DNA of 64,000 bases from Earliella scabrosa (lineage: Eukaryota; Basidiomycota; Agaricomycetes; Polyporales; Polyporaceae), in NCBI GenBank assembly GCA_022605405.1, contig JABYQQ010000003.1:2232001-2296000 (forward strand), written 5' to 3'. Below the pieces are notes generated by a model, which saw only the letters and a program-made list of their open reading frames with translations, had not been told where the DNA came from and searched no databases. The position numbers and the translations under genes are program-made. Shown here piece by piece: positions 2,176-35,318 of this stretch; position 1 is the stretch's first letter, and each line of letters begins with the position of its first letter.

Positions 2176-2627
2176 TCCCGGGTGTGTCGGTACCGTTACG
2201 TGTCGTTGGGGCGGTGTGTGCCGCATCAGGACGCATGCATCGACAGGTCGGCGAGGTGCTGGGTTGCTGCCGTCATTGTGATCACAACTCAGGATCGACT
2301 CACTCTCTTGGCCTGTCTGGGAGGCCAGAGTTCAACGTTCACACTCGCCGTTGGGTAGTTCACGCTGACTGTTCCGAGCGGACGGTCGGGACGAGTCTGC
2401 GCAGGAACAGAGATGGGGGCTAATATTCGCTGCGGATACGGGCTGTCTTTGTGGGGGTCATGGACTTTAGAACATGTATACAGGGGCCACGCATACACAG
2501 TACCCTACATTCAATCATATTGACGCACCGAGGCCGTACCCGTTCTCTGTTGACTTCCACCCTGGAGGCGGTCCAAGTGTCACCAAAGCCGTGACCCGGC
2601 AAGCGATCGTATCGGACCTGGCTAACC

Positions 2628-17626: not shown

Positions 17627-18119
17627 CAACCAGCAGCGACCTAATTTTGAGAACCACCATTGTGCCATTGACGCCATCCGAACATCCCTGGAACCCGCTG
17701 TCAGGCGAGACGCATGTGAGAGCGCTGCGGCGGTGAGGAATGCGAAAATGGGAGTGCACGCCGCAACGATGGAGCAGGGGCGAGCCGAAGGACGTGCCGA
17801 AGGGCTAGCCGAAGGACGTGCGGAGCGGGAGCGGCGGGACATAGAGATTGCTCGCTTGCGCGAGGAAATTGCGCGCTTACGCGCAGAGCAAGCAGCCCGG
17901 GCCGGTGAGTGATTATGCATATGAATCATCATACCCTCCTCTCATGGGACTATCCCTTAGCCACTACTACGCCCAGAGTCTGATCATCCACTGCAGTGTC
18001 TTGTCCTTCGTGTGCGGTCGTTCTTGCTCCTCTCCTCTCGTCTGCTGTGTCGTACGCCACTACAATACCTTCTCCTGCATTGCATCAGCCAGACCTCATG
18101 TAGTACCTTGTCGCCTCGT

Positions 18120-19125
18120 TGTTGTGCACCTGCACCGGCCATGCCCCGATTTCGTCGACCCGCGCTCTGCGACGCGCCTTCGCGCGAACCCTTCGCGCGA
18201 CCTTCCCGCGGACGGCAGCCGCGCCCCACCAGCCTTCCGACTGCGCGCGGCCCTACCACACGAAAACACGCGCGACTTCGAGACCCCTTCATTTCCCCCG
18301 ACGGTCCGGTCGGAGCTCCGCAACGCGAGGGACGAGGCAGCCTCGGACGCACGTTCCGCGAGCCAAGGATGCGGAAGAACATCGCGCGCGGGGGCCGCGA
18401 GCGCGGCATTCGACCGAGTCATGCGAAGCTGGCCACTCACGAGCTTGCGAGCTATCGCGACCGACGGACGAGACTTGGGAGCGCGAGGACGCGATCGTGC
18501 GGAGGGACGTGCCGAGGATCGAGGGCACAGCCACCGTCCGGTAGCCTCGAGGCTGATTCGTCGAGAGGCGAGATTGCGATCGAAGACCGCGTTTGAGGGT
18601 GACGGGACGGGGATGTGGCGAAGGCACGCGCAGTTGGGAGAGGATCAGGCGGACGGTGCGGGCGGTGGAAGGGTTGATACGAGAAGTTTTTCGGTTGTCG
18701 CGTTCCGGAGTTGCGGACGGTCGCAGGACCGTGTAGTTAGAGTAGTGCGAGGGCAGGAGCCCCGCAGGATCGAATCCCCCACCCATCGAGACTCAGCGAA
18801 TAGGCGTGCGTTTGCGTCTGCGTTTGCGTCTGCGACAGCGACTTGCGTTTGCGCCTGCGATTTGCGTTCTTCTCATCTCGAAACACCGTCCTGCGGGTTC
18901 CCTCCGCAGAGCTTGAGTTAGCCACACCCCTTCGAGCTCTCTTCCATAGTCTTCCCCCGCGGTCTCTGCGATCCTTCGCGAGAGCCTTTCGAGAGTCGAC
19001 TCCGCGTCCGCGTCCTGCGAACCCGGGAACCAGATCCCCTACCTCGCACCACCTTCTCGAGTTCTTGGTTTCTTAGTGTGGTTTAGTTGTTTCTTTCCGC
19101 ACACAGAGCCGGAGCACACCCATCA
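18120..19125 (+). repeat. 5' LTR of gypsy element
   Basis: 1,006 bp, TGTTG...CATCA. It differs from the 3' LTR only at 18810 (G here, A at 31061) and 18980 (G here, A at 31231). It must contain the promoter for gag-pol transcription. ORFs within it appear identically in the other LTR and are not credible genes. Confidence 0.95.
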
Positions 19126-19128
19126 TTC

Positions 19129-19146
19129 TGGAGCCCACCGCGAGGG
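19129..19146 (+). other. Candidate primer-binding site
   Basis: Three bases after the 5' LTR the sequence starts TGGAGCCCACCGCGAGGG, as expected for a site complementary to a tRNA 3' end (…CCA). I cannot name the tRNA from memory. Confidence 0.55.
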
Positions 19147-19520
19147 GGAGTAAATCTGCCACCGCCGGTAACAGGTCCCTGGACGATTCCCTCGACATCT
19201 ACATCGAAAGGACGGCCGCTGCCCTCCGACAATTTCGCGAAGAACTCGACGCGGAATTAACCCCCATCGAAGACTCTGACGCAGGCTCATCGCCCCGCGG
19301 AAGTCAGCTGGAGGTCCCCCGCACACCTAGAACGCGGATCGATTTAGACATCTTCGGTTCGTCCCCTCTTACCGATCTCGAGGACTCTCCCCGTGATTCG
19401 TTCCATACCCCTCTCCGCGAAATCCTTCCGCGAGCAAGCCCGCGAACCCAATCTCTACCCCCTTTCCCTATCCCACCCCCTATCCCTTTCAATCCACTTC
19501 CTATCGCAACTGCGCCACCC

Positions 19521-22103
19521 ATGGCTTCTACCGGATTCGACAAGCTGCCCCTGAAGCGAAGCAAGGAGGCTCCGCGGTACGATCCGTCTTCGCGAGATGC
19601 CGTCGCGGAGTACTTCGAGGAGCTCGAGCGCCTACTCGCGCGCGAGGGCGTGACATCCGAAGAAGAGAAGAAAAAGGCCGCGCTCCTATACGTGCCTATC
19701 GACGTCGCGAAAACCTGGAAGGTCTTGCAGACGTTCACGAACAAGGGACCTACCGACACCTACGAGAAGTTCCGCGATGAAGTCTTGGGGTTCTACGTCG
19801 GATCGGACTCTAGTCACGTCTGGTCACGGGCACAGCTTAACAAGTTAGTCAACGACACCCGCGAAAAGGGGATTCACACCCTCGAGGAATACTCCGAGTT
19901 CTACCGGAAGTTCTATCCTATGTTCCGATACCTGTCGACGAAGCCGCGACCCGGCATCGCAGAGGATGACGCTGCAGCCGCGCTCCTCAGCCTTGTCCCG
20001 CCCGAGAAGGCCGCAGCCGTTAGCGCTCGTCTCGCGAACAAGGTCCCCGACAAGCACCCGAGCGACCCCTTTTCCGTCGCGGAAGTGCACGAGGCTATGA
20101 CCTATTGCCTCGAAGACCAAGGCCCTTTCGGCGTACTCCTTCAGGGCTCCGACCATCGGTTTCGGTCCGGCGCGGGGTCGTCTCTCTTAGGCACTTCGGC
20201 GTTCGCGACCCAGAGCGCGCAGACGCCCGCGCGCGAAGTCAAGCAGGAGCCGGCTTTGGAGTCCTTCAAGCAAGAGATGCTGAGCGCGATGACGGAGACC
20301 TTTCGTACCCTGTTCCGCAATGAGAACGGAGGACAGCGAGGGTTCCCGCGCGACGACGCGCCGCGAGGAGGAGGCTGGCAGCGGAACGACATACCGCGAG
20401 GACCCCCTGCGAACGTCCGGCTGAGCAATGCGGGACTGGGCTTCGCAGGCGAGGACCAAAACTGTTTCTACTGCGGGACCGCTGGGTGCCACTCTAAGAC
20501 CTGCCCGGCGGCTCGCGAAGATCTCGCGAACGGTCTCATCGAACGCGGCGATGGAGGACGTATCTTCCTTCCGAAAGGCACCTTCGTCCCTCGGAACCTT
20601 CCCGGGACTTGCATGCGCGAGCGCGTTCTAGTCTGGCACGACCTCAATCCCGGCAAGAAGAACCCTACCCAAGTCGGCCACATGATGCTAGTCGTCGAGC
20701 CCGAAGAAGACCCGTACTACGCCGGCGCGAAGGAGAGCAAGAGCACGATCGAGGAGGAACTCGCAGTCTTGATGCAGCGCGCGGGCGAGCTCAAGAGTCA
20801 GCTGGAGCTCGAGAAGCAGAAGCGCAAGGTCCGGTTCGACGGAGTCGAGATCACGACGCGTCCGAAGAAGCACACGCGGGAGGAGTCTGAGAAGGATCGC
20901 GAGCAGCCGTGGAAGCGCGATGCGCCACCGCACCTGTCAGACCGGGCGGAGGCTAAGCAGCGGGTCGCGCGGGATGAAGGTCCTTCTCGCGACAAGGACG
21001 ACGAGAACATCCCGATCCACCCGTACTCGAAGACGCGACCCCCAGTCACAGCTGAGCCTATCGCGCGCGACTTCGCCTTCGGGAACCACAGGCGCGCGAA
21101 CAGCGCGACCGACGCTCCTTCGCGGACCGAGCCCGCGTACCGTCACACCGCCGCGATCGTAGACCCTAACGCGGAGAAGCGAGTCTTTCAGAGGAGCTTC
21201 GGCGAAGCGCAGCCGGTCACGATGACCCCGGTCGAACTCTTGAGCGTGTCTCCGGGGATCCGGAAGATGCTGAACGACGCGACGTCTTCGCGGCGGTTCG
21301 CGATTCGCGCCGCGCGCGAGAAGGCTGCGGGAGAGGACGAAGAAGACGAGGGAGATGAGAGGACGAAGAAGAAGGGCGAGGATAAGGGGAAGGGCCGGGC
21401 GTACAAGACGTTCGTACAGGACTGTCCGGAGGAGGACGAGCCGACGGTGTGGACGCACAGCGGGGATGAAGCGGAGACCTTCAAGCTTTCGCGGGAGAAG
21501 AAGGCGTCCCAGACGGTCGAAGAGGCGGAGTCGGATGATGAAGACGAGGAGCTACCCCGCGGGATGTACCGCGTACGCCGCGGAACGTTTTCGCGCGATG
21601 AGGACGAGGACGTCGGACCTGACATCGTTGTCGGGGATAAGACTCACAAGTTGAGGTCTATCTTCGCACATGTCAACAACTCGGACGTCCCGACCGAATG
21701 CGTTCTCGACCCGGGCTCGCAGATTGTCGCGATCAGCGAGGCGAAGTGCTTCGAGCTCAAGATCCCTTACGACCCGTCCTCTAGTCTGCGGATGGTCAGC
21801 GCGAACGGCACAGTCGACCCTACGCTCGGTCTCGCGAGGAACGTCGCAGTCGAACTCGGCCCCGGAGTCGTCGTCTACCTACAGATGCACGTCGTGCGGA
21901 ACGCCTCTTACGACGTCCTCCTCGGTCGACCCTTCGACGTCTTAGTCTCCGGCACCGTAGTCAATAAGCCAGACGGTCGTCAGACGATCACCGTTCGTTG
22001 TCCGAACTCGCGCCGCGAGCTCACCCTACCGACGTATGCGCGAGGCGAAGGCCCGAAACAATCGCAGACGTCGCGCGCGGGTTTTCGGACTTCGATGATC
22101 TGA
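19521..22103 (+). CDS. gag: Gag polyprotein with C-terminal retropepsin (gypsy)
   Basis: 860-residue ORF. The N-terminal third is a gag-like helical capsid region (DAVAEYFEELERLLAREGVT, LEEYSEFYRKFYPMFRYLST). A zinc knuckle follows around residues 315-330 with cysteines spaced C-X2-C-X4-C, then His and C-X3-C; the usual His position is Cys and His comes one later. A long charged linker with many Glu/Lys follows. The C-terminal 150 residues hold an aspartic protease with DPGS as the active-site motif (residue about 729) and a later LLGRPF block. The frame is open for about 440 bases upstream of ATG 19521, back to a TAG near 19075 inside the LTR, so the true start could be earlier. The ORF overlaps pol by about 100 bases. 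Confidence 0.9.
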   Translation: MASTGFDKLPLKRSKEAPRYDPSSRDAVAEYFEELERLLAREGVTSEEEKKKAALLYVPIDVAKTWKVLQTFTNKGPTDTYEKFRDEVLGFYVGSDSSHVWSRAQLNKLVNDTREKGIHTLEEYSEFYRKFYPMFRYLSTKPRPGIAEDDAAAALLSLVPPEKAAAVSARLANKVPDKHPSDPFSVAEVHEAMTYCLEDQGPFGVLLQGSDHRFRSGAGSSLLGTSAFATQSAQTPAREVKQEPALESFKQEMLSAMTETFRTLFRNENGGQRGFPRDDAPRGGGWQRNDIPRGPPANVRLSNAGLGFAGEDQNCFYCGTAGCHSKTCPAAREDLANGLIERGDGGRIFLPKGTFVPRNLPGTCMRERVLVWHDLNPGKKNPTQVGHMMLVVEPEEDPYYAGAKESKSTIEEELAVLMQRAGELKSQLELEKQKRKVRFDGVEITTRPKKHTREESEKDREQPWKRDAPPHLSDRAEAKQRVARDEGPSRDKDDENIPIHPYSKTRPPVTAEPIARDFAFGNHRRANSATDAPSRTEPAYRHTAAIVDPNAEKRVFQRSFGEAQPVTMTPVELLSVSPGIRKMLNDATSSRRFAIRAAREKAAGEDEEDEGDERTKKKGEDKGKGRAYKTFVQDCPEEDEPTVWTHSGDEAETFKLSREKKASQTVEEAESDDEDEELPRGMYRVRRGTFSRDEDEDVGPDIVVGDKTHKLRSIFAHVNNSDVPTECVLDPGSQIVAISEAKCFELKIPYDPSSSLRMVSANGTVDPTLGLARNVAVELGPGVVVYLQMHVVRNASYDVLLGRPFDVLVSGTVVNKPDGRQTITVRCPNSRRELTLPTYARGEGPKQSQTSRAGFRTSMI

Positions 22104-25100
22104 TTTCCGGTCAGGGAGAGGTGGCCCTCGTCCTGGACTACGACGCGAAAACGAGGCAGATATACGTCACCGCGCATAGAGCCCTCGAAGATACCTCAGC
22201 TACCGCGATCCAAGAAGCGTATTTATTAGCGAGCGACGACCCCAGCGTAAAACCAGAAATCCATACATATCTCAGCTCTCAGTCTCGAGTTTCGGTTTCC
22301 CTCGACTCTACCCGCGCGACCGATACCCCTCATGCGACGACTTCCGAGCCGGAGCGCGGTCGCGCGACACCAGATACCCGAGCGCCTACAGACGCGATCC
22401 GCGGGACGCGATCACGTGGGCGCGTCAGGCCTGTCTACCCTACGAAATCTCTCGGACGGCGTCCGGTGCGCTCGCGATCGGGTTCGTATTCGAGACCCCG
22501 CGAAGCGAAGCCGGACGGCCGTCCTGCGACTCCCACATGCGAAGAGGAGGAGGTCGAAGTACTGCTGAAGACGAAAAAGAAGTACAAACCGGTAGCGCTC
22601 AAGGTCAACCCTAAGCCGACCGAGCTCCCACAACACTTCCGCATCGTCCGAAACCACGTCGGCGACCCTCTCGAGAACATGCCAACACTAGACCCCAACC
22701 CCAAACCTTTCGAACCCACCGGACGTTACACCGCGGAGCGTCGCGAGAAGCTGCACGAGGATCACGCGGAGTGGCTGACGCCCGAGGAACTCGCGATCTT
22801 CGACGACTTGATGTGCAAGCAGAACGAGGGCTTCGCTTGGGAGGACTCCGAGCGCGGGCACTTCCGTCGCGACATGTTCCCGCCGGTCAGGCTCGCGGTC
22901 ATCCCGCATGTTCCGTGGATCGAGAAGAACTTCCCCATCCCACCCGGCATCTACAATCAGGTCATCGCGCTCATCCGCAAGAAGATCAACTCCGGAGTTT
23001 ACGAGCCGTCGAACGCGTCCTACCGTTCGCGATGGTTCTGCGTGCTCAAGAAGGACGGGAACATCCGCATTGTCCATTCTCTCGAGCCGCTGAATAAAGT
23101 CACGATTCAGCACAGCGGCGTGCCCCCGATCCCCGACCATATGGCGGAGAGATTCGCGGGACGCGCCTGCGGAACCACGCTCGATCTCTACGTCGGCTAT
23201 GACGAACGCGAGCTCGAAGAAGAGTCGCGAGACCTTACCACCTTCCAAACACCCTTCGGCGCGATGCGCCTCACCACACTTCCTATGGGCTGGGCGAACT
23301 CAGTTCCCATATTCCACGACGACGTAACCTTCATCCTACAACCCGAGATCCCCGCGTACACTATCCCCTACATCGACGACGTTACGGTGATCGGTCCCGC
23401 GAGCGCATACCGCCGCGAGGACGGAACCTACGAGACGATCCCCGAGAATCCCGGAGTTCGGCGCTACGTGTGGGAGCATCTGCAGGACGTCAATCGGATC
23501 GTTCAGCGAGTCAAGCACGCAGGAGGCACCTTCAGCGGGAAGAAGATTCGGTGCGCAGCGCCGGAGTTCACCGCGGTCGGACACCACTGCACCCCGGAAG
23601 GTCGCGTCCCGGAACCGAAAGGCGTCGAGGCTGTCCTGAACTGGGGCCCGTGTGCCAATGTGTCTGAGGTTCGCGCTTTCCTAGGGACCGTCGGAGTCGC
23701 GAGGATCTTTATCAAGGACTACGCGACGAAGGCGCACCCTCTCAACCGTCTTCTGCGAAAGGACACGCAGTTCGAATGGGGCCCGGAACAAGAGCTTGCG
23801 ATGCAGACCCTCAAGGACGCGCTCCTCGTGTCCCCGGCGCTCCGCGCGATCGACTACGAGTCTGACGCTCCCGTGATTCTGTCCGTCGATACGTCTAAGA
23901 TCGCGGTCGGCTTCCACTTATGTCAAGAGGACCAAGAGGACCCGAGGAAGCGCTACTACAGCAGGTTCTGTTCCATCACCCTGAACGATCGCGAAGCGAG
24001 GTTCTCGCAGCCGAAACTCGAACTCTACGGTCTTTTCCGCGCGCTTCGCGCGCTCCGCTTCCATTTGGTAGGCGTGCGCAAGCTCGTCGTCGAGACGGAC
24101 GCGACCGCGATTAAGGACATGCTCGCGAACCCTGACGTCGCGCCATCTGCGGTGATGAATCGCTGGATCATCGCGATCAAGATGTTCCACTTCGACCTCG
24201 TGCACGTTCCGGGAAAGAGCCATACCCCGGACGGCCTCAGCAGACGACCCGCGCAGCCAGACGACAAGCCCGACGAGGACGACGGGGAGGAGTTTGAGGA
24301 CTGGGTCGACAATATGTACGGCTTCATGCACCTTATAAACCCTCCTCCGCGACTCGGGGACGCTGCGATCGACTTCTCAGTCCCGCGAAGCATCGACGAA
24401 GTCGAGACTCTCATGCAGCAGACGAGCGGAACCGCCGCGAAGCTCCCTGTAATCGCGCCGCCGCCGTACAGCGACTTTCCGCGAACCGCGATCGCGCGCG
24501 ACTTCGACTTCAGAATCGAAGAAGTCAAACACTGGCTCGCGACTGGCGAACGACCCGCGATGGAATCACGCGAGGCAGATAAGTTCGCGAAGTACGCTTC
24601 CCAGTTTTTCCTCCGCGACGACCGCCTGTGGAAAGTAGGACGCGATGGGCACCATCGTCGCGTCCTCGAGGCGGAGAAGCGACCTCAAGCGCTCGTCGAG
24701 ATGCACGACTATGTCGGACACCGCGGGATTGCCGCGACAACCTCTTTCCTCGCGGACCGCTTCTGGTGGCCCGAGATGAAGGCGGACATCGCGTGGTACG
24801 TGCGGTCGTGCCATCAGTGCCAAGCGCGACAGACCACCAAAGTTCGTATTCCCCCAACGGTCCCCATCCCCGCGCCCCCGATGATGCGTGTGCACGTCGA
24901 CTGCATGGAGATGCCGGGGCGGTACCGATACTTCTTCCACGCGCGCTGCGCGATGACGACCTACTGCGAAGGACGCGCGAGCACGGCGCAGACCGCGAAG
25001 GCGATCGGCGACTGGATCTACCAGGACTTGCTTTGTCGCTGGGGCGCCGTCTGCGAGATCATCTCGGACAACGGGACGCCCTTTGTCGCCGCGCTCGAGT

Positions 25101-25870
25101 ACATCGCGAAGACCTACCACGTCTACCACATTCGGATCTCAGGCTACAACTCGCAGGCGAACGGAATTGTCGAGCGCCCGCACTTCCACGTACGCGACGC
25201 ACTCTACAAGGCCTGCGAGGGAGACCCGAGTCAGTGGGTCTCGCGAGTCTACTCTGTCCTCTGGGCGGACCGGATCACTGTTCGACGCCGAATGGGCTGC
25301 TCGCCATACTATGCAGTCACAGGCACGCACCCGATCATGCCCCTCGACATCGCGGAAGCAACCTACCTCTTGCCGACGGCTAACAAAATGATCTCGACCA
25401 CCGAGCTCATCACCCAGCGCGCGATCGCCCTGCAGAAGCGCCCCGAGCAAATCTCGCGACTGCGCTCGAAGGTCTACGCGAGCCGAGTTCGCGCCGCGGA
25501 ACTGTACGAGGAACACCACGCGCATACGACAAAGGCTTTCGACTTCAAGCCCGGTCGTCTGGTCCTCATGCGGAATACTGCGATCGAGAAGTCGTTGAAC
25601 CGCAAAATGCGCGCGCGGTACTTGGGTCCGCTGGTGGTCATCTCGCGCAACCGGGGCGGCGCTTACATCGTCGCGGAGCTCGACGGCGCCGTACACGATC
25701 GCCCTATCGCCGCGTTTCGACTAATCCCGTATCTCGCGAGGAAGAGCCCCATACCTTTTAGGATGGAGGACTTAGATGTCGACGCGAGACGAATCCGCGA
25801 GATGGAGGAGAGCGAGGAGACGTTTGAGGACGAAGGGCTAGGAGAGCCCGAGGAGGCCGAAGAAGATTAG
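21998..25870 (+). CDS. pol: Pol polyprotein: RT, RNase H, integrase (gypsy)
   Basis: 1,290-codon open frame, -1 relative to gag; translation probably enters it at 22079-22085. The order is: linker; RT with motif A (LDLYVGYDE), LPMGWANS and the YIDD box near residue 458; RNase H with LSVDTSK, the Glu in KLELYGL, VVETDATA and HTPDGLSR; an integrase HHCC zinc finger (H-X-H then CHQC near 24810); the integrase core with VHVDCM (about 968), SDNG (about 1023) and GIVERPH (about 1058), 34 residues between the last two; and a GPY/F-like C-terminal module (RYLGPLVVISRNRGGAYIVA). All catalytic residues are present and there are no internal stops. The tail is acidic and lacks a chromodomain. Confidence 0.93.
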   Translation: MSELAPRAHPTDVCARRRPETIADVARGFSDFDDLISGQGEVALVLDYDAKTRQIYVTAHRALEDTSATAIQEAYLLASDDPSVKPEIHTYLSSQSRVSVSLDSTRATDTPHATTSEPERGRATPDTRAPTDAIRGTRSRGRVRPVYPTKSLGRRPVRSRSGSYSRPREAKPDGRPATPTCEEEEVEVLLKTKKKYKPVALKVNPKPTELPQHFRIVRNHVGDPLENMPTLDPNPKPFEPTGRYTAERREKLHEDHAEWLTPEELAIFDDLMCKQNEGFAWEDSERGHFRRDMFPPVRLAVIPHVPWIEKNFPIPPGIYNQVIALIRKKINSGVYEPSNASYRSRWFCVLKKDGNIRIVHSLEPLNKVTIQHSGVPPIPDHMAERFAGRACGTTLDLYVGYDERELEEESRDLTTFQTPFGAMRLTTLPMGWANSVPIFHDDVTFILQPEIPAYTIPYIDDVTVIGPASAYRREDGTYETIPENPGVRRYVWEHLQDVNRIVQRVKHAGGTFSGKKIRCAAPEFTAVGHHCTPEGRVPEPKGVEAVLNWGPCANVSEVRAFLGTVGVARIFIKDYATKAHPLNRLLRKDTQFEWGPEQELAMQTLKDALLVSPALRAIDYESDAPVILSVDTSKIAVGFHLCQEDQEDPRKRYYSRFCSITLNDREARFSQPKLELYGLFRALRALRFHLVGVRKLVVETDATAIKDMLANPDVAPSAVMNRWIIAIKMFHFDLVHVPGKSHTPDGLSRRPAQPDDKPDEDDGEEFEDWVDNMYGFMHLINPPPRLGDAAIDFSVPRSIDEVETLMQQTSGTAAKLPVIAPPPYSDFPRTAIARDFDFRIEEVKHWLATGERPAMESREADKFAKYASQFFLRDDRLWKVGRDGHHRRVLEAEKRPQALVEMHDYVGHRGIAATTSFLADRFWWPEMKADIAWYVRSCHQCQARQTTKVRIPPTVPIPAPPMMRVHVDCMEMPGRYRYFFHARCAMTTYCEGRASTAQTAKAIGDWIYQDLLCRWGAVCEIISDNGTPFVAALEYIAKTYHVYHIRISGYNSQANGIVERPHFHVRDALYKACEGDPSQWVSRVYSVLWADRITVRRRMGCSPYYAVTGTHPIMPLDIAEATYLLPTANKMISTTELITQRAIALQKRPEQISRLRSKVYASRVRAAELYEEHHAHTTKAFDFKPGRLVLMRNTAIEKSLNRKMRARYLGPLVVISRNRGGAYIVAELDGAVHDRPIAAFRLIPYLARKSPIPFRMEDLDVDARRIREMEESEETFEDEGLGEPEEAEED
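22079..22085 (+). promoter_or_regulatory. Candidate -1 ribosomal frameshift heptamer GGGTTTT
   Basis: In the gag frame it reads G GGT TTT, the canonical X XXY YYZ slippery form, sixteen bases before the gag stop (22101-22103). Slipping back one base enters the pol frame exactly (CGC GGG TTT TCG). A short inverted repeat AGGG...CCCT about 30 bases downstream could stimulate it. Confidence 0.65.
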
Positions 25871-25916
25871 GCGCTCTTGTGCGCGAAGATGGGACGTCGA
25901 CGGGGACGTCGACAAC

Positions 25917-25931
25917 ATTAGCGGGGGGGAG
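25917..25931 (+). other. Internal polypurine tract, first copy
   Basis: ATTAGCGGGGGGGAG, 47 bp after the pol stop and preceded by a GACGTC/GTCGAC palindromic patch. This is where a standard gypsy element would have its polypurine tract and 3' LTR. An identical 15-mer is at 30355-30369. Confidence 0.75.
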
Positions 25932-26601
25932 GAGGTACGATACATGACTTGGACACGGTTATCCTGCGATCACTTTCTCTTTTCGATTTCCGAACTCTGA
26001 CTTTCGACAGCCCGCGAACGCCGATCGCGGCCTTGTTTTGCGACACACTTTCCTTACTATATACCCATTTCGCGAACTCTTTCCGCAGAACCGTCCCGCG
26101 AGACTTCCCTGCGGGACATTCCTTTACTTACTACTTCCAAGACCAGTCACACTTTTACTTAAGTCAATCACACACTCTTTCTATCACACAGTTTATTGAT
26201 AAAACAAGAAAGCAAACGACGAAAACAAAAACTACAAAACAACAGCCACAAAACGAAGCTTACGACTACTTTTACGATACATTTTTACGATACTTGACGA
26301 CGGGACACGAGTTCGAGACGGGACGGGACTGGGATGCGATGCGATGCGGGGGACGGGCGAGAGCGATGGCGAGAGCGGGATGCGAAGGGAGAGCGAGACG
26401 GGCGAGCGCGAGGACGAAGACGACGAGAAAGGGAAGCCCGGGAACCACGGCGGAGCGGCCTGCGACCGCGACCCGCGAAGCGCGACTGCGAGGACCGGCC
26501 TCAGCATTCACGAGCTCCAGGATCGCGGAATGTGCGCGCCAACAGCGGAGCTGCGATAGCGGCACGACTGAGGCGCGCCCCGCGACGAGAGCGCGAGGCC
26601 C
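25932..26601. other. Non-coding part of the antisense block
   Basis: Between the internal polypurine tract and the 3' end of antisense gene A. A/T- and A/C-rich in 25950-26290, unlike the rest of the element. It probably serves as the 3' UTR/terminator of gene A. A 258-codon plus ORF here has no recognisable content. Confidence 0.45.
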
Positions 26602-28632
26602 CTACTGGTTCTTGCGGAGCACGGTCCACACCCGCGCGTCGGACTCGCGAGAGTCGACGACCTCCGCGAAGGTCAGCAGGTCGGGAACGCGAACCGAATC
26701 GTCCAGGTCGGCCTCACCGAAGTAATGGCCGGTGTACTCCTCCTCCTGGTCGCGGACGGCAATGAGTTCCTCGACGTGCTCGACGATCTCGCCGAGCAAA
26801 ACGTTCGCGCGCTTGCGGCACGCGGCGACCTTCTTCGACACGGCCGGGCTGAGGTCCGCAGGCGGGGCGACCTCGCGAGACGACTTCGAAGCCGAAGCCG
26901 ACGCGCCCTCCGACGACGTCTTGGCCTTCTTCTTCTTCGCGGGCGCAGGCGTCGGCTCGGGGGTCTTCTCCGGCGGGTAGCACTCCGGGAGCGGCGGGCC
27001 CTTCGCGGACTTCTCGGGCGCGGCGCCATCGTAGGCCTCAAGGAGGAACCCGTTCTGGTCGATGATGGGGTAGACGGTGGGAGCGGGAGGCCCGGCGCGC
27101 GCGGCCAGCTCCTTCGGGCGCGCGACGCGGATCTTGGGCGGGTCGTTCTCGAACGCGCGGACGGCCTGGACAGCTTGCACGCGGTACTCGGGCAGCTGAG
27201 TCTTGAAGGAGCGGAAGACGAAACCGACGCCGTTGTACTGCGCGAGAAGCCGACCGCCCTTCTCTGCGACAAGGGACGAGTCAGCGTAGAACCGACGAAG
27301 CGCGACGGAGGTCGACCTACTCTTGGTCTTCAACTCGCCGTACGAGTTCAGGCCGCGGCGGGTGCACTGCATGTTCCGCGAGCGGTGCCCGCAGAAGTCG
27401 CAGGAGAGGCCGCGCTCGTCGTGCGTACGGACGCAGATGGGGAACTTGCGCGTCTTGCACTCGTCGCAGGGCTCGAAGAACTCGAGCGCGTACTTCGAGT
27501 TGGGAAGGATGGCGACGGGGGCGGCGGGCGTAGTGGAAGCGGGCGGGTCGTCGGCGGCGTCATCGGGCTTTGCGGCGGTCGCGAGCTCCTCCTCTTCAGA
27601 CTCCAAGACCTCGACGACCTTGGCCCTCTTGCGGACGGACTCGGGCCGCGCGGCGATCTTCTCCTTGCGTTGCGCGCGCGTGCCGTGGGCAGGAGGGGGA
27701 CGGACGACCTCGCTCACCTCGACGACATCGGAGTCAGCGGCCGCATCAGCCTCGTCCGCGGAGACATCTTGCGAGACCGCGCGGCGCTTGCCCTTAGCCG
27801 GCGCGGGATCGGGCTTCTCCTTCTTGATGCGCACCGGAGTCGAGATCGTCGCGGGAGGGAGCAGTGCACGCGAGGGCGCTCCGGGAGTCACGGGCGCGCT
27901 AGGCGGCTCCGCGGTCGAGCGGCGAGGGTAGTGGCGAGAGAGGCCGCCGGCGAGGATGGCAAGGCCGACCGGGAGGGGAATGGGCTCCGACCTGAGCAGG
28001 CGGAAGTCTTTGATCTCCCGGATGCGCTTGACTGGGGGACAAAAAGAGGGACGGTTAGCTGAAGAAGACAAGAGAGGAGGGGCGCGCGAGGACTTACGCT
28101 CCCAGTCGGTCACCAACATGCGGGCCCTGACCACCTTCTCCTGGCGCGGCGTGGTCGTGTGGTCCGGGCGGCTGGTCTCCAAGTCCGCGAGCTCCACCTC
28201 GAGCGAGGCGCTCCGGGCCTCGCGAGTGCGAACCGAGAAGACGAGGAGGACGACCTCCTGCAAGCGAGGGGAGGCGTGCGGAGCGAACCGCTCCCAAAAC
28301 TCCGGGAAGAGGTCGTCCGACTGGAACGGGTCCTCGAGCGAGTACTGCGAAGCGGTTAGTGACTGCGGACAGGAGTCGCGAAGGGGCGCGGGACTTACGG
28401 CGATGTGGACGAAACGGCGCGCGAAGTCTTTCGCGGCCTCCTCGCCGCCAGACTGGAGCTCCTCGGGCGTGTACAGGCGGAGGAGCTCTTGCAGCTCGTC
28501 GGGCGCGTACGGAGTGCCGACGCGCAGGTCTTCGTCGTTGGACTGGAGCTCGACTTCGGCGGCGTCGGTCGCGGGATCGTCGGCGCGGGTGTCCATGGTG
28601 TTGGAGGACTCGGGAGGCGGAGGCGAGGACAT
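26602..28632 (-). CDS. Antisense gene A in retroelement: Zn2Cys6-like protein
   Basis: Minus-strand gene inside the retrotransposon, exons 28632-28399, 28344-28098 and 28031-26602 (636 aa), introns 54 and 66 bp with GTAAGT donors and CAG acceptors. ATG 28632 (MSSPPPPESS) is preferred over 28776, whose extension is Pro/Arg-rich leader. The N-terminal part is acidic and helical (FWERFAPHASPRLQEVVLLV). The middle is basic and disordered. A cysteine cluster near residues 400-435 has spacing C-X2-C-X7-C-X10-C-X2-C-X8-C, close to the fungal Zn2Cys6 cluster (first spacer 7 instead of 6). A Lys/Ala/Ser-rich segment follows, and the end is acidic. It could be a DNA-binding regulator; other zinc-binding roles are possible. 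A 445-codon plus-strand ORF on the other strand looks like its shadow. Confidence 0.75.
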   Translation of the reverse strand: MSSPPPPESSNTMDTRADDPATDAAEVELQSNDEDLRVGTPYAPDELQELLRLYTPEELQSGGEEAAKDFARRFVHIAVSPAPLRDSCPQSLTASQYSLEDPFQSDDLFPEFWERFAPHASPRLQEVVLLVFSVRTREARSASLEVELADLETSRPDHTTTPRQEKVVRARMLVTDWERKSSRAPPLLSSSANRPSFCPPVKRIREIKDFRLLRSEPIPLPVGLAILAGGLSRHYPRRSTAEPPSAPVTPGAPSRALLPPATISTPVRIKKEKPDPAPAKGKRRAVSQDVSADEADAAADSDVVEVSEVVRPPPAHGTRAQRKEKIAARPESVRKRAKVVEVLESEEEELATAAKPDDAADDPPASTTPAAPVAILPNSKYALEFFEPCDECKTRKFPICVRTHDERGLSCDFCGHRSRNMQCTRRGLNSYGELKTKSRSTSVALRRFYADSSLVAEKGGRLLAQYNGVGFVFRSFKTQLPEYRVQAVQAVRAFENDPPKIRVARPKELAARAGPPAPTVYPIIDQNGFLLEAYDGAAPEKSAKGPPLPECYPPEKTPEPTPAPAKKKKAKTSSEGASASASKSSREVAPPADLSPAVSKKVAACRKRANVLLGEIVEHVEELIAVRDQEEEYTGHYFGEADLDDSVRVPDLLTFAEVVDSRESDARVWTVLRKNQ

Positions 28633-28865
28633 GGTGGCGAGGCGGGTGTGCGGGATGGGCTGAGACGAAGAAGACGAGGGACGAGTTGGGCGAGGGGCGG
28701 AAGGCGGAACGAGAAGAGGGGCTGAAGGGCGAACCGGACGGAAGGCACGCGTTATGAACTCGGGCGCGGCGGACAAGAGCTGCGCGCGCGCACTACAATT
28801 TCAGCTCGACGAACGGCGAAGTACAGGGTCGCGGGCTTCTACGCTACATCGCCGCCCCTTCCTCC

Positions 28866-29510
28866 TCAGAACTCCTCAGAACCAGTGTCGAGGCGGTCAA
28901 TCAGGGACCTGCGCTGAGGGACTGCGCCCCCAAGTCGGGCAGTCTCCTGGTCAATTCGGTGGATGTCGTCCTGCAGCAACTTGACGCGCGCGCGGGCTTC
29001 TCCGGCGACGTGTGACAGCTGGCGCGCGGCGATCTGTTGAATGGAAGCGACGGTGGCCTGCTCGTACGCGAAGACAGCGCGGTACGCCTCGAGGTACCTC
29101 AAGCGGATACCGGGGCGCGCGGCGTCGACGGTCTTGTTGAACTGCTCGACGAGCGTGGGGCCGCCCTCGACCGACGCGAACGCGAGGCGGAGTCGATCCT
29201 TGACGCCGGAGTGGAATTCGCCGTCGCCCTCGAGGAGCGCGGTGAGGATGATCTGCGATTTCATTAAGCGGCGCCGGCGATCAAAAATGGAAGCAGCGCT
29301 CACGTAACACTCCGCAAGCTGGTCGACGAGAAGGGCGAAGTCTAGAGCGGTGCCGGCACCAACGGGACCCGGACCGGGGCCGCGGGCCACTTGAGCGTCG
29401 ATGGCGTCAAGCAGGTGCTCAGTGCGAAGGCGGACGAGAGGGTAGAACCGCGAGATCATTTCGCGGTACGAGATCGCGCGCTCAACCATCTGGGAACCCA
29501 GCGAAGGCAT
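28866..29510 (-). CDS. Antisense gene B in retroelement: helical protein
   Basis: Minus-strand gene with no recognised domain. ATG 29510 (MPSLGSQMVERAISYREMIS) is preferred over 29570. A 51 bp segment, 29253-29303, starts GTGAGC, contains CTTAATG and ends CGCAG, so it is probably an intron; its length is a multiple of three, so the frame stays open if it is retained. The spliced product is 197 residues, otherwise 214. It is almost entirely predicted helix, with a heptad-like C-terminal third (QIAARQLSHVAGEARARVKL then DDIHRIDQETARL). No zinc ligands or catalytic motifs. It is 234 bp from gene A and 179 bp from gene C. Confidence 0.65.
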   Translation of the reverse strand: MPSLGSQMVERAISYREMISRFYPLVRLRTEHLLDAIDAQVARGPGPGPVGAGTALDFALLVDQLAECYVSAASIFDRRRRLMKSQIILTALLEGDGEFHSGVKDRLRLAFASVEGGPTLVEQFNKTVDAARPGIRLRYLEAYRAVFAYEQATVASIQQIAARQLSHVAGEARARVKLLQDDIHRIDQETARLGGAVPQRRSLIDRLDTGSEEF

Positions 29511-29688
29511 GGTGCGAGAGGATGTTGCGGGACGTCTTTGCGACGCTCGACGACTTAAATCCCTCGACACTGGTGGCGTCTCAAGGGCTACAGAATTTCC
29601 GTATCAACGACAATCGCGATCTACCCTATTCCCTCTATGGACCGTTCCCCGCGACCCCTATGCCGCGGCCGCCCATCGCGAACATCCC

Positions 29689-30275
29689 TCAGCAGTCCGC
29701 GGCAAGGAGCGCCCGCCTGTTCTGGTCGCGCAACGCCGCTATTTCGAAGTCGAGCCCCGTCTGTTCGCGGTCCAAGGCCAGGATGACGTCGTCGAGGCGG
29801 ATGAGGAAGTGGACGTCGTGTTGGTTGGCGCGGGCTAGGGTCTGGCGGATGAGGCGAACTTCGCGGAGTCGAACGCGGACGGCGGCAACCTCGGTCATCA
29901 AGCTGTCGAGACGCGCGCTGCGGCGGACCCCGACAACCTGGTCCGAGAACTCGTTCGCGAAGCGCGTCCCAAAGTCGGGCCAACCGCGTTCAAGCGCGTC
30001 GCGCGTGCGAGTCACGTATTGCGCCGCCGCGTTAAGCGAGGAGTTGAAGACTATGAGCGGACGCTACGAGTGCGGGGTTAGCGCACGCGAGACGGAATAC
30101 AGACAGGACATACCAGGAGCTGGATGATCCCGATGTACATGTCCGCGATGTGACCCGCGTCCGACTCAGTGTTGGCGTCTGCGAGCGTTTCGAGGTCGAA
30201 GACGGCTCGCTCGAGAGCTTGGATCGCGACGGAGATGGCGCGTTCGCGAAGGTCCGGAGGAAGCGGCGAAGACAT
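29689..30275 (-). CDS. Antisense gene C in retroelement: helical protein
   Basis: Minus-strand gene, exons 30275-30114 and 30063-29689, one 50 bp GTATGT...TAG intron, 178 residues. It begins MSSPLPPDLRERAISVAIQA and continues with helical segments (TLADANTESDAGHIADMYIG), then VTRTRDALERGWPDFGTRF and a heptad-like end (LDDVILALDREQTGLDFEIA). No domain recognised. Like gene B it has a single phase-0 intron after about 55-70 residues and an ERAIS motif near its N-terminus, so B and C may be diverged duplicates. Its start is only 95 bp from the 3' LTR, so it is the promoter-proximal gene of the antisense block. Confidence 0.65.
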
Positions 30276-30311
30276 GGTTAGGTGCGGAAACCCTTTCTGC
30301 GCGTTCCCCCC

Positions 30312-30318
30312 TTTTATC
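30312..30318 (-). promoter_or_regulatory. Possible TATA-like element for antisense gene C
   Basis: GATAAAA on the minus strand, 37-43 bp upstream of the gene C start and outside the 3' LTR. A hairpin-forming sequence (GGGACTG...CAGTCCC) lies a little further upstream at about 30334-30351. Promoter activity is inferred only from position and sequence. Confidence 0.3.
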
Positions 30319-30354
30319 CCCGTCCGTCTTCGAGGGACTGGGGACAGTCCCGAT

Positions 30355-30369
30355 ATTAGCGGGGGGGAG
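30355..30369 (+). other. Polypurine tract next to 3' LTR, second copy
   Basis: ATTAGCGGGGGGGAG directly before the 3' LTR (one base, A30370, between). It is the expected plus-strand primer and is identical to 25917-25931. Confidence 0.8.
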
Positions 30370-30370
30370 A

Positions 30371-31376
30371 TGTTGTGCACCTGCACCGGCCATGCCCCGA
30401 TTTCGTCGACCCGCGCTCTGCGACGCGCCTTCGCGCGAACCCTTCGCGCGACCTTCCCGCGGACGGCAGCCGCGCCCCACCAGCCTTCCGACTGCGCGCG
30501 GCCCTACCACACGAAAACACGCGCGACTTCGAGACCCCTTCATTTCCCCCGACGGTCCGGTCGGAGCTCCGCAACGCGAGGGACGAGGCAGCCTCGGACG
30601 CACGTTCCGCGAGCCAAGGATGCGGAAGAACATCGCGCGCGGGGGCCGCGAGCGCGGCATTCGACCGAGTCATGCGAAGCTGGCCACTCACGAGCTTGCG
30701 AGCTATCGCGACCGACGGACGAGACTTGGGAGCGCGAGGACGCGATCGTGCGGAGGGACGTGCCGAGGATCGAGGGCACAGCCACCGTCCGGTAGCCTCG
30801 AGGCTGATTCGTCGAGAGGCGAGATTGCGATCGAAGACCGCGTTTGAGGGTGACGGGACGGGGATGTGGCGAAGGCACGCGCAGTTGGGAGAGGATCAGG
30901 CGGACGGTGCGGGCGGTGGAAGGGTTGATACGAGAAGTTTTTCGGTTGTCGCGTTCCGGAGTTGCGGACGGTCGCAGGACCGTGTAGTTAGAGTAGTGCG
31001 AGGGCAGGAGCCCCGCAGGATCGAATCCCCCACCCATCGAGACTCAGCGAATAGGCGTGCATTTGCGTCTGCGTTTGCGTCTGCGACAGCGACTTGCGTT
31101 TGCGCCTGCGATTTGCGTTCTTCTCATCTCGAAACACCGTCCTGCGGGTTCCCTCCGCAGAGCTTGAGTTAGCCACACCCCTTCGAGCTCTCTTCCATAG
31201 TCTTCCCCCGCGGTCTCTGCGATCCTTCGCAAGAGCCTTTCGAGAGTCGACTCCGCGTCCGCGTCCTGCGAACCCGGGAACCAGATCCCCTACCTCGCAC
31301 CACCTTCTCGAGTTCTTGGTTTCTTAGTGTGGTTTAGTTGTTTCTTTCCGCACACAGAGCCGGAGCACACCCATCA
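30371..31376 (+). repeat. 3' LTR of gypsy element
   Basis: 1,006 bp copy of 18120-19125, differing at 31061 and 31231 (both A here, G in the 5' LTR; both in a former CG dinucleotide). Confidence 0.95.
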
Positions 31377-31456
31377 TCGTTTGCATTACATTGTACATAT
31401 TGCAAGAACCTGGACTTGACCTTTGCCTGCGTCGCTGAGGAAGCTGCGAAGAATAA

Positions 31457-32171: not shown

Positions 32172-35100
32172 TCAGGCATGTGTGAGAGGGGCGTCTGCAA
32201 ACGTGAACGCCAAGGGGTGGGTTTCGAGGAAGTCGAGGATGAGGGGGAAGGGATCGAGCTCGCCCAGGTAGTCGTCCCAGGTGAGCGAGTACGGGGTGCG
32301 GGGGTAGAACGTGCACCTGTTGAAGACATGGCGCCGCGTCTGCAGTTCGGGCCGGTCACACGTGCAGTGCGTGGGCTGTTCGGGGAAGAACCGGAGTCGG
32401 TATGCACCCGTGGGTGCGTGGTCCGTTAGGCAACGCACCATACGCGCACACAGGGACTTTGAGGAGCCAATGCGCTTTACCGGGTAATTGCCAGTGTGTG
32501 TGACAACACGCAAGGCTGGATGCTGGGGGTATCGTCGTCCCCAGTACTTCGGGCCGCGCGCTGCGAGCCTCCAATCCTCGCGGGCGTTGTCCGTGATGGT
32601 GAAGCGGGCATATGTAAGGGAAATGGGGCATGGTCGGGGGACGGGAACGGCGGGGTCGTCCACTGCCGGTCCCACGGCCTCGTCAATGCGTTCGTTGAGG
32701 TCGACGTCGCGATGTGATGGACAGTACGAGAAGCACAGCTTCCGGGCTGGGTCGCCGTCGAGCCACGTGCGGATGTTTGTGCACGCCTTGAGGGAGATAC
32801 TCTGGCCGGCGTGAAGGTGGGGTTCCAGGATGGTCTTCACGGCTGACTCGCCGTCAGAGAAGATGTGGATAGTGTTGAATCCGGCACCACAAGCATAGGC
32901 AAGTGCCATGCCCAGCGCCACTAGTTCCTGAGAGCCCGGCCCGCAGCAACCATGCGCGCGTGAATGCGAGCTGCGCCGTGGTATGCATGGTACCCTGCAG
33001 CGGACTTCCCGTACATAGGAAAGGCGCTGCCATCGGTGAAGATGTAGAGGGTGTCGGGATCATCGCAGCATGCTTGAATGCGAGGTAGCAGCACATTTGC
33101 GATCCAGGTGTCGAGCTCATCCGAGCTCTTCTTCGGGTGCTCAAGGAAGAACTCGATGCGGCTCTCGTGAGTGTCGACAAGGCGCAGGCCCGGGCAGCAC
33201 TCAGGATGCAGGGGGTCGAATGTCTCTGTCACCAAGCCAAAGGACTTCGGCGCGTGAGAGAGAGGGATGGTGTCAACAGGCTTTGAGAGTTCTGCCGGGA
33301 ATCGCGTGAATGGAGCCCCGTCCACCCGCCCGAGGCAATTGGGAAACAGGGCAGCCACTGGATGTGTGCCCATAAGAGTGCGGATACGTAGGAAATATCG
33401 CTCTTGCAGTTTCCGGACGCATGACTCCGCCAAACGCCTCCAGCGCACCAGCCGGAGTTGTGCGGAACCCTCCAGTGATCCACCGCATGGCCTCGTTATG
33501 CGCAGTACGCAGCGGAGCCATGCGTGTCTTGGAGCGAGACGTGTACCACACCTGACAGCCGTATGTCATGAGAGGCAGCACGCAGGAGATGTAGAGCCGA
33601 CGCTTCTGGGGAGGGGAGAGGCCGTGGATGGAGTTCCCCAGCATGAGCATGGACTGGACGGTCGAGCGTGCGGCCTGGGAGTAGTGTGCAATATGATGGC
33701 GAAAGGTCAGCTCGGGGTCCAGGAAGAACCCCAGCCACCTCCACCGCTTCTTCGGCTTGAGGGGAGACTCGTGCGTGAACGGTCCGCGCATGAGTCGGAT
33801 GTCGAGAGGCTTGTGGTCGTTACGCATACGCGCGGATATGAAGTGGCAGGCCTCCGTCTTCTCGTGCTCGACTACGAGCCCGAGTTGACCGAGAACCCGC
33901 TCGGCCTTGTGATATGCTTCAACCAGAAGCAGGTTGTTGATGGCAATATGCTCAGAGGTGGCTGTGAGGAGCCCGTCGTCGACATAGAACTTCAAGTCTG
34001 TCTCCGACTGGGCGGTGGATACGGGATATAGCACATGGAGTGCTGGGGAGACGTAGATTCCGGAGAGAACAGGGGAGAGAGCAGAGCCCTGGCCCACTCC
34101 AACACCGGGCGCTGCGAACTCGGGTGAGCGGGCATTCCCCCACACGAACGACGTAGAGCGTCCTTCAAGGTATGACCTGAAGAAGACGACGTATGCTCGG
34201 TTGAAGCCATAGCGCTCTAGGATGCGTGCAAGCATTTCGTGCTGCACAGAAGGAAAGAACTGAGCGACGTCGAAGGCCAGACATGATGTGACTAGACCCT
34301 GACGCCACCCCATACGGATGTGTGTTACGAGCGTGGACACGGCATCCACTGTTGAGCGCTGTTTGGTGCCTCCAAACTGGTTCGGGTGCAGCAGGCCAAA
34401 CTTGTTGCACTCGAAGTGGAGTCGCTCTGCGAGAATGCGCTCCGCCAGCTTGCCAATGCAACTGAGGAGAACGATCGGGCGGTACGCCTTGATGCAAGAG
34501 TAATCAGCCTTGTGAGGCTTTGGGATGACGACGGAGACAGCCCGCTTGAATTGTTCAGGCCAGTGACCAAGCGTGAGGCAGCCGTTGTAGATCGCTAGCA
34601 AGACCTCAGCAAAGTGAGGGTCACCAGCGAGGGAGCGGAGATGGGACCATCGTATGTGATCCCACCCCGGTGCCGAGTTGCGAGCGGCCTTGAGAGCATC
34701 CCGGAGCTCGCGGTATGAGATAGGCGGACACTCGCGCTCTTCGTGTGGATCCACCTGATCGAGAATGGAGAAGTCAACCGTGCGGTTGGCTGCCGAGTGG
34801 AATGTGGAGTCCAGCGCAGCCCACAGCTCGTTCTGCGTGCGGACTGGCTGGCCCCCATGGACAATGGCTGAATACATAGGCAGAGCGCGCGGGCGAGTCC
34901 AGGAGACAAGGTCCCAGACGCGCTTCTTGGTCTCTGCAACCTCCGTAATGCGTCGGTCGAAGAACTCGCGTTTCGCCGCACGTAGAGTGGCCAGATAGGC
35001 GCGCCGCGCAAGATGTTCGCGGTCGCGCGCAGCATGGAGCAGAGCCGCATGGCGTATCCGCTCTGCAAGGTCCGCTCCCCGGGGAAAGTGGCGCGCGATG

Positions 35101-35318
35101 ACGCGGGACTCATTGACCGCAAGGCGGTAGTGATCCCTCGCCTCCGTGCACTCGTTGGTCCACCAGGAGCATGTGTGAAGGGTTCTCTTGCGAGGCCCAC
35201 CAGCATAGGTCCAGGGCAGGTTTGGCGCTTGGGTACGGCCGTAGGTCGCAGCAATCCTCGGGCGGCCAATTGGCCTCCCCAATTGGTATGCAGTGAAGCG
35301 CCGGCCGAAGCCTTCCAA
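32172..35318 (-). pseudogene. LINE reverse transcriptase-RNase H, frameshifted
   Basis: Read on the minus strand. RT block 35318 to about 33430, with AYRPIVLLSCIGKLAERILA, HPNQFGGTKQRSTVDA, AFDVAQFFPSVQH, GVGQGSALSPVLSGIYV and the catalytic FYVDD (near 34000). A frameshift near 33430 moves to the next frame (RKLQERYFLRIRTLMGTHPV), running to RNase H motif IFTDGSAF. A second shift near 32930 leads to SQELVALGMALAYACG, HIFSDGESAV and SHRDVDLNERIDE. The end has a Cys/His cluster (CTCDRPELQTRRHVFNRC), usual after the RNase H domain of such LINEs. Stop at 32172. The N-terminal endonuclease expected before RT is absent. Confidence 0.85.

Follow-up and report, generated by a model that had tools for sequence, protein, structure and literature searches.

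Why an intact retrotransposon should carry a set of genes that run against its own gag and pol, and what such genes might do for it, is the question raised by a Ty3/gypsy element in the 64,000-nucleotide stretch of Earliella scabrosa DNA analysed here (hereafter the window). Downstream of pol and before the 3' long terminal repeat (LTR), this element has three minus-strand genes, which we call A, B and C. As described below, they are conserved as proteins, they are found together in many copies of the element, and a block of the same kind is present in a related family. The explanation that best accounts for these observations as a whole, and towards which the sequence comparisons incline us, is that the genes form an accessory antisense module with a role in trans, which appears to be swapped between elements together with the U3 part of the LTR.

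An element with three antisense genes

The element occupies positions 18120-31376 of the window (13,257 bp). Its LTRs (18120-19125 and 30371-31376, plus strand, 1006 bp each) differ by 2 mismatches (99.8% identity) and have the ends TG...CA by direct sequence reading, and a 4-bp target duplication, TCGT, flanks the element at 18116-18119 and 31377-31380. Between the LTRs lie, on the plus strand, a gag-protease open reading frame (ORF) of 860 aa (19521-22103), with matches to PF13975 (E 1e-6) and PF13650 at residues 718-805, and a pol ORF (21998-25870) in the -1 frame relative to gag, which encodes reverse transcriptase (RT), RNase H and integrase (PF00078, PF17919, PF17917, PF17921). The LTRs, gag, the order protease-RT-RNase H-integrase and a polypurine tract (PPT) are those of a Ty3/gypsy element, and the RT relatives that carried organism names, among the 120 listed, were a Tf2-type polyprotein of Grifola frondosa and an integrase-domain protein of Ganoderma sinense. 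The original prediction, made from the letters of the window, of an intact gypsy element of about 13.3 kb with near-identical LTRs was therefore correct.

Reading from pol towards the 3' LTR, gene A adjoins pol, gene B lies in the middle and gene C adjoins the LTR. Gene A (26602-28632, 617 aa) consists of exons 28632-28399, 28344-28098, 28031-27321 and 27263-26602, separated by three introns of 54, 66 and 57 nt; gene B (28866-29510, 214 aa) is intronless; and gene C (29689-30275, 178 aa) has one intron of 50 nt at 30064-30113. All introns of A and C are of the GT-AG type and contain the CTAAC- or CTGAC-like motif of a branch site. Three antisense genes had been foreseen, as had the length of C, whereas A and B, previously given as 636 and about 197 aa, take the lengths stated here.

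The antisense genes are conserved as proteins

The genome searched for further copies was a 51.7-Mb assembly of 48 contigs (labelled C1, C2 and so on, with the window on C3), and all locus counts given here are lower bounds. A, B and C were matched at the same 17 of 17 loci, C being partial at the C8 locus and at one locus on C2, and no copies were found away from these elements in this genome. Fifteen of the loci lie between two LTR matches of the window family, and the other two have an LTR on one side only. The genome contains at least 42 matches to the LTR, a count based on the scoring of 40 of 47 candidates, and 11 LTR pairs stand 12.2-12.3 kb apart, so that 11 of the 17 copies are full length by size; identity within an LTR pair was computed for the window element only.

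For the analysis of selection, 18 stretches over the block were fetched, covering all 17 loci (L011 is the window; L027 and L028 represent one locus), and 16 rows, L012-L026 and L028, were aligned against the window, with L027 unaligned. The rearranged L028 was kept out of all counts of the ratio of nonsynonymous to synonymous divergence (dN/dS), and L026 also out of those for C. Over all pairs, dN/dS was 0.168 for A (16 sequences), 0.092 for B (16) and 0.058 for C (15), and the counted copies contained no internal stop in A or C and a single one, in one copy, in B; the L028 locus has stops in one short piece of unspliced match. When one C8 copy, which has a 1-nt gap in gag and a pol codon that was set aside as a stop, was compared with the window, dN/dS was 0.13 for gag-protease and 0.10 for pol, and 0.16 and 0.15 for A and B. 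The original prediction had regarded the block as a retained accessory module that travels with its element, and this idea stands: the block is present at 17 loci rather than a single one, in 15 cases between two LTR matches and in two beside LTRs on one side, its three genes occur together at every locus with dN/dS of 0.06-0.17 rather than about 1, stops in the counted copies are limited to one in one B copy, and a sister block exists.

Moreover, the constraint acts on the annotated frames. Variable sites fall at the third codon position of the minus-strand frames in 36 of 49 cases for C, 35 of 52 for B and 139 of 221 for A. When all six frames were compared for the three genes in four copies, the gene's own frame (dN/dS 0.00-0.22) had the lowest value in 11 of the 12 comparisons and tied at 0.12, in the twelfth, with the opposite-strand frame that shares its third positions; some of the other frames had no synonymous change and so gave no value. 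Indels that are not multiples of three occur in intron 2 of A in 5 of the 16 aligned rows, and the exons of A contain, over the same rows, only an in-frame deletion of 36 nt in L022 and the breaks of two rearranged copies, namely a gap of 143 nt in L026 and a large insertion in L028. Frame-changing indels in the unrearranged copies are thus found only in the intron, as selection on a spliced protein would predict. All three antisense genes are real protein genes, conserved as proteins, and chance open frames in G+C-rich DNA were rejected because of this frame-specific constraint.

Paired polypurine tracts and apparent exchange of the block

Three other elements, on C1, C11 and C23, encode an RT that is 76% identical to that of the window element. 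Downstream of pol, the C11 element (L029) again has three minus-strand genes: one, of 602 aa, is homologous to A, and the other two (169 and 180 aa) are of the C type and 44% identical to each other, one of them sitting where B lies in the window. Window A matches the A proteins of the C11 and C23 elements (c11 and c23) with E values of 9e-9 and 7e-10, and window C matches the second C-type protein of c11 (c11_C2) with an E value of 5e-5. Two intron positions, those of intron 2 of A and of the single C intron, agree exactly between the window and the sister family in alignment column and phase. For intron 1 of A the phase also agrees and the preceding residues are alike (FVHIA, FLELA, FVNLA), but MAFFT did not align this intron, and intron 3 of A differs in position. 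Sister A was located at four loci, with a PPT match on either side at each, and the donor of its intron 1 is GT in a copy on C42 and AT in that on C11. Judged by these comparisons, a three-gene antisense block recurs in the same position in the sister family.

In the window element the block (25932-30354) extends from the base right after one PPT to the base right before another. PPT1 (25917-25931, plus strand), an internal tract just after pol, and PPT2 (30355-30369, plus strand), which adjoins the 3' LTR, are the same 15 nt, ATTAGCGGGGGGGAG, so that on sequence the element has the second, identical internal tract by which a central PPT is recognised. Just 5' of each tract is a hairpin with a 7-bp stem and a 4-nt loop (hairpin 1 at 25896-25913, in a stretch that folds at -13.4 kcal/mol, and hairpin 2 at 30334-30351, both on the plus strand), and the element has no other perfect 7-4-7 hairpin. 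None of 300 Markov shuffles contained two such pairs of hairpin and purine run (mean 0.013), as against the two observed. Among the 18 stretches of the window family, PPT1 is exact in 14 and lacks one G in another, with three in which it was not found; PPT2 is exact in 15 and has an extra G in another, with two in which it was not found. Both copies in the sister elements read ATTTCGGTGGGGAGGAGG, with one of them mismatched in C42.

Six distinct hairpins were obtained from the window, sister and gag-only elements (the last are described below). All seven stem pairs hold in them and all seven vary on both sides, mostly between the PPT1 type and the PPT2 type; when families are compared within one type, differences are confined to pairs 1 and 7 for PPT1 and to pair 1 for PPT2. 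Mismatches at the outermost pair of the PPT1 hairpin were seen in L013, L016 and L022, and L025 has damaged hairpins. When stretches of 47-48 nt were folded, the z scores of the window pair were -3.6 and -3.1, and those of the sister pair a weaker -1.1 and -1.0. Since the stems are position-specific in both families, and each family has its own tract sequence, the same at both sites of an element, the duplication of hairpin and PPT seems to predate the split of the two families, with the two tracts changing together afterwards. Such joint change would be expected if the same RT-RNase H reads both tracts. The bounding of a block by two hairpin-PPT elements is new here.

An indication of how these boundaries may be used came from c11 and c23. 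Over the final 161 codons of pol, counting the stop, the two elements agree at 460 of 483 positions; they agree at 16 of the 22 bases from the pol stop to the hairpin, and at 36 of 36 over the hairpin with PPT1. The identity drop begins at the last base of PPT1, and the block is identical at 2516 of 4267 positions (59%; shuffled control, 41%). U3, the first 323 bp of the LTR, is likewise identical at 191 of 319 positions (60%); in the remainder of the LTR, 407 of 411 positions agree (99%). The synonymous difference (pS) rises from 0.150 in the pol end to 0.54-0.63 in the genes of the block, and because synonymous sites differ too, protein constraint alone is insufficient to explain the contrast. 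All three sister RTs score alike against the window, and the comparison of c11 and c23 pol was made over the pol end. The block and the U3 promoter thus appear to have been exchanged as one unit between element backbones. A single recombinant reverse transcription could produce this pattern, if minus-strand transfer at R were made onto a second RNA, the U3 and block of that RNA were copied, and synthesis then switched back to the first RNA at PPT1.

Mosaic copies were also found in the window family. In L012, L014 and L018, C and much of B are diverged from the window and A is near-identical, with 8-11% of synonymous sites differing in C and 1-2% in A; here the change falls inside the block, not at PPT1.

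It is improbable that the contrast between c11 and c23 reflects very fast evolution of the block and U3 in place, with no swap. A does evolve fast (c11-c23 dN/dS 0.59), and the contrast is seen in one element pair only, but the synonymous sites are split in the same way as the whole sequence, the edges are abrupt, and the window-family copies are mosaic as well. In addition, the gag-only family is 98% identical to both c11 and c23 over the remainder of the LTR but only 53% over its first part, U3.

Several features of these elements were recorded in passing. The gag-only gypsy family (L033, C19:605200-612700; L034, C1:2798900-2805600) forms head-to-tail LTR-gag units of about 5 kb, each with one hairpin-PPT (ATTTCAGTGGGGAGGAGG), no RT and no antisense block; ATTTCAGTGGGGAGGAGG-type PPT pairs had been considered as a third block-bearing family, which was rejected on finding these tandem units with one PPT each. 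The window LTR contains three near-copies of TGCGTTTGCGTCTGCG at 18807-18862, and LTR positions 600-699, beside these repeats, show the greatest divergence of the family copies from the window; examination of the repeats as factor binding sites gave nothing clear. By eye, pol of the C23 element is broken by an insert rich in short-period repeats (L031, about 870-4250), and a 478-aa ORF after its LTR (L032, 4032-5468, plus strand) resembles a Copia-type RT-RNase H fragment. Beyond the window element, a 681-aa minus-strand ORF at 33273-35318 is, by eye, like a non-LTR reverse transcriptase, and is neighboured by minus-strand ORFs at 32172-33448.

Proposed function and known counterparts

What, then, could the three proteins do? 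We consider a trans-acting regulatory or anti-silencing module the most likely answer, followed by cofactors of replication. TATA-like boxes lie 41-56 nt 5' of the ATG in seven of nine genes (41 nt in window gene C) and 82 nt in another, with none for window A, in a count made with no chance control; they suggest that A, B and C have promoters of their own, so that expression independent of the genomic RNA would be possible. The introns would survive retrotransposition because, being antisense, they are not spliced from the sense RNA. Protein A has basic runs in all three of its versions (window, c11 and c23), as well as a six-cysteine cluster spaced C-2-C-7-C-10-C-2-C-8-C in the window and C-2-C-8-C-8-C-2-C-6-C in c11 and c23. 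Zn2Cys6 clusters follow the pattern C-x2-C-x6-C-x5..12-C-x2-C-x6..8-C, to which all three come near, with a longer first loop. A may therefore be pictured as entering the nucleus, where it might bind DNA through the cluster and, together with the small B and C proteins (the latter predicted as helical), act in trans on transcription or silencing of the element. The apparent exchange of the block with U3 as a unit fits a regulator that travels with its target. The duplicated hairpin-PPT on the pol side would, in this view, act as a second primer of plus-strand synthesis and as the point at which cassettes are swapped in reverse transcription. Action in trans is proposed by analogy, as it is suspected for gene23 of Grande and known for HBZ of HTLV and for VANC of VANDAL elements, an element-encoded nuclear protein; the likeness of HBZ and VANC to A, B and C is one of function only, as trans-acting nuclear proteins, of which HBZ is antisense. 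In the available accounts, HBZ of HTLV-1 is an antisense, trans-acting nuclear protein (PMC11963269), and Grande gene23 has its own promoter and encodes a nuclear protein (PMC7264820).

A rather unlikely alternative is that A, B and C are components of replication or of the particle (helical structural or nucleic-acid-binding proteins, or ones for nuclear import of the pre-integration complex), encoded antisense as separate mRNAs. Constraint close to that on gag and pol would suit this role, as would the long helical hairpin predicted for C and the basic runs and cysteine cluster of A, but several copies of the gag-only family, with LTRs and one hairpin-PPT, lack the block, even if they might use its products in trans, and A diverges far more than pol between the sisters, which would be unusual in a core part of replication, though the swap explains some of it. 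That host genes were captured once and are carried as passengers, beneficial or neutral to the host, is very unlikely: the introns mean that the block did not come from spliced mRNA, as expected of capture from genomic DNA, but in this genome no copy was found outside elements (17 loci for each window gene, four for sister A), and A and C are common to two families whose RTs are 76% identical. We regard as least probable that the antisense transcripts act as RNA, forming double-stranded RNA that tunes silencing or copy number, with the frames secondary. Control by antisense RNA has been proposed for plant elements with antisense ORFs, according to the available account (PMC7264820), but here selection on amino acids (own-frame dN/dS 0.00-0.22) weakens the idea, as do the confinement of frame-changing indels to an intron and the keeping of two intron positions in the sister family.

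Other identities of the block were also considered and rejected. Envelope-like genes were set aside on hydropathy (the highest 19-residue value is 1.40 in window proteins, and only c23_C2 reaches 1.64), and a nested DNA transposon because no terminal inverted repeats were reported and the block is bounded by PPTs. Among the proteins scanned, none matched the Pfam model of the TRP28 or transposase 28 domain (PF04195) at E <= 5.

Several results weigh against a trans-acting module. DNA binding by A is a guess, because the cysteine cluster matched no Pfam zinc-cluster model at E <= 5, for which reason A is not filed as Zn2Cys6 (its best Pfam match is DUF3716, E 4.7), a PDB profile search with the cysteine region returned no solved structure (three matches at E 0.9-1.6, not meaningful), and the AlphaFold model of this region was unusable (pLDDT 39). 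Exon 2 of C was modelled as a helical hairpin (pLDDT 77) of a generic kind, and Foldseek found for it generic helical proteins, none at E <= 0.001. For B no significant homologue was found in the sister family (its best E value, 0.9, is to window C), and the matches of window C to c23_C1 (E 0.01), c11_C1 (0.06) and c23_C2 (0.2) are of no clear significance. The dN/dS of A, 0.89 between the window and c11 and 0.59 between c11 and c23, also fits relaxed constraint on much of the protein. The switch at PPT1 was seen in a single element pair. Beyond this genome, A was compared twice with 5.8 billion public proteins, with scoring limited to about 8000 candidates that shared most words, and each search gave one near-identical entry, so that these searches do not support wide conservation of the block, despite the 1528 relatives returned by the RT search. 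Since these searches need shared five-residue words and scored limited candidates, absence of the block outside this genome is weak evidence, and it is probably weakened further by public gene calls that ignore introns. Alignment of pol against viral_contigs and genome_contigs confirmed no relatives. Within this genome, the one 7-kb stretch taken from a family with 40% RT identity (L030, which starts inside pol and in which the LTR was not located) held no homologue of A, B or C.

A more specific form of the trans-acting module, which we offer tentatively and think more doubtful than the module itself, is that the interval from PPT1 to U3 is an exchangeable regulatory cassette, in which trans factors are matched to the U3 that travels with them and the hairpin-PPT on the pol side serves in reverse transcription as a second plus-strand primer and sets the junction at which cassettes are swapped. 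If so, two co-packaged RNAs could give a cDNA with the gag-pol of one element and the regulator and promoter of the other, and a gypsy element would have a swappable type of control, resembling immunity or quorum systems.

Antisense accessory genes are already known in plants and in Botrytis, and the three-gene fungal block is a variant of them. The antisense gene brtn of Boty, or BcGypsy1, was reportedly described by Zhao 2011, known here through citing papers. As cited there, Boty of the ascomycete Botrytis cinerea has brtn as a single antisense gene (PMC7264820, PMC8365987); it resembles the window element in being a fungal Ty3/gypsy element with an antisense accessory gene, and differs, in a comparison by description only, in its ascomycete host and in having one gene where the window element has three. 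In plants, antisense ORFs of unknown function lie between pol and the 3' LTR, and elements of the Tat/Retand type (Grande with gene23, RIRE2, Retand with its TRP28 ORF) share this arrangement in the accounts available (PMC7264820, PMC11963269). Unlike these, the window element has a fungal host, three genes of which two contain introns, and no TRP28 match in the proteins scanned, together with a duplicated hairpin-PPT and a block that is apparently exchanged with U3 as a cassette. No basidiomycete element with such a block or hairpin-PPT pair was found in the literature searched, which comprised titles, the starts of abstracts and few subscription papers. Three fungal antisense genes with gag-like constraint, many copies and an apparent natural swap make the question of function testable.

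The paired tracts have counterparts of their own. Bongo3, a chromovirus of Beta vulgaris, has an additional PPT (PPTa) at the gag-pol end besides the LTR-adjacent one; the available part of its description mentions no hairpin, antisense genes or cassette exchange, and reports that Bongo1 and 2 lack PPTa (PMC3605345), whereas both tracts are present here in the window, c11 and c23 lineages. A central PPT, likewise an additional, internal tract that repeats the sequence of the first, occurs in retroviruses and Ty1, and none has been identified for Ty3, as far as the accessible text states (PMC5371799). PPT1 differs from a central PPT in that it follows pol, lies 4.4 kb from the 3' tract and is preceded, as is PPT2, by a hairpin, and its priming is putative; a hairpin-marked second PPT in a Ty3/gypsy element would nevertheless extend central-PPT biology to a group whose namesake is reported to be without one.

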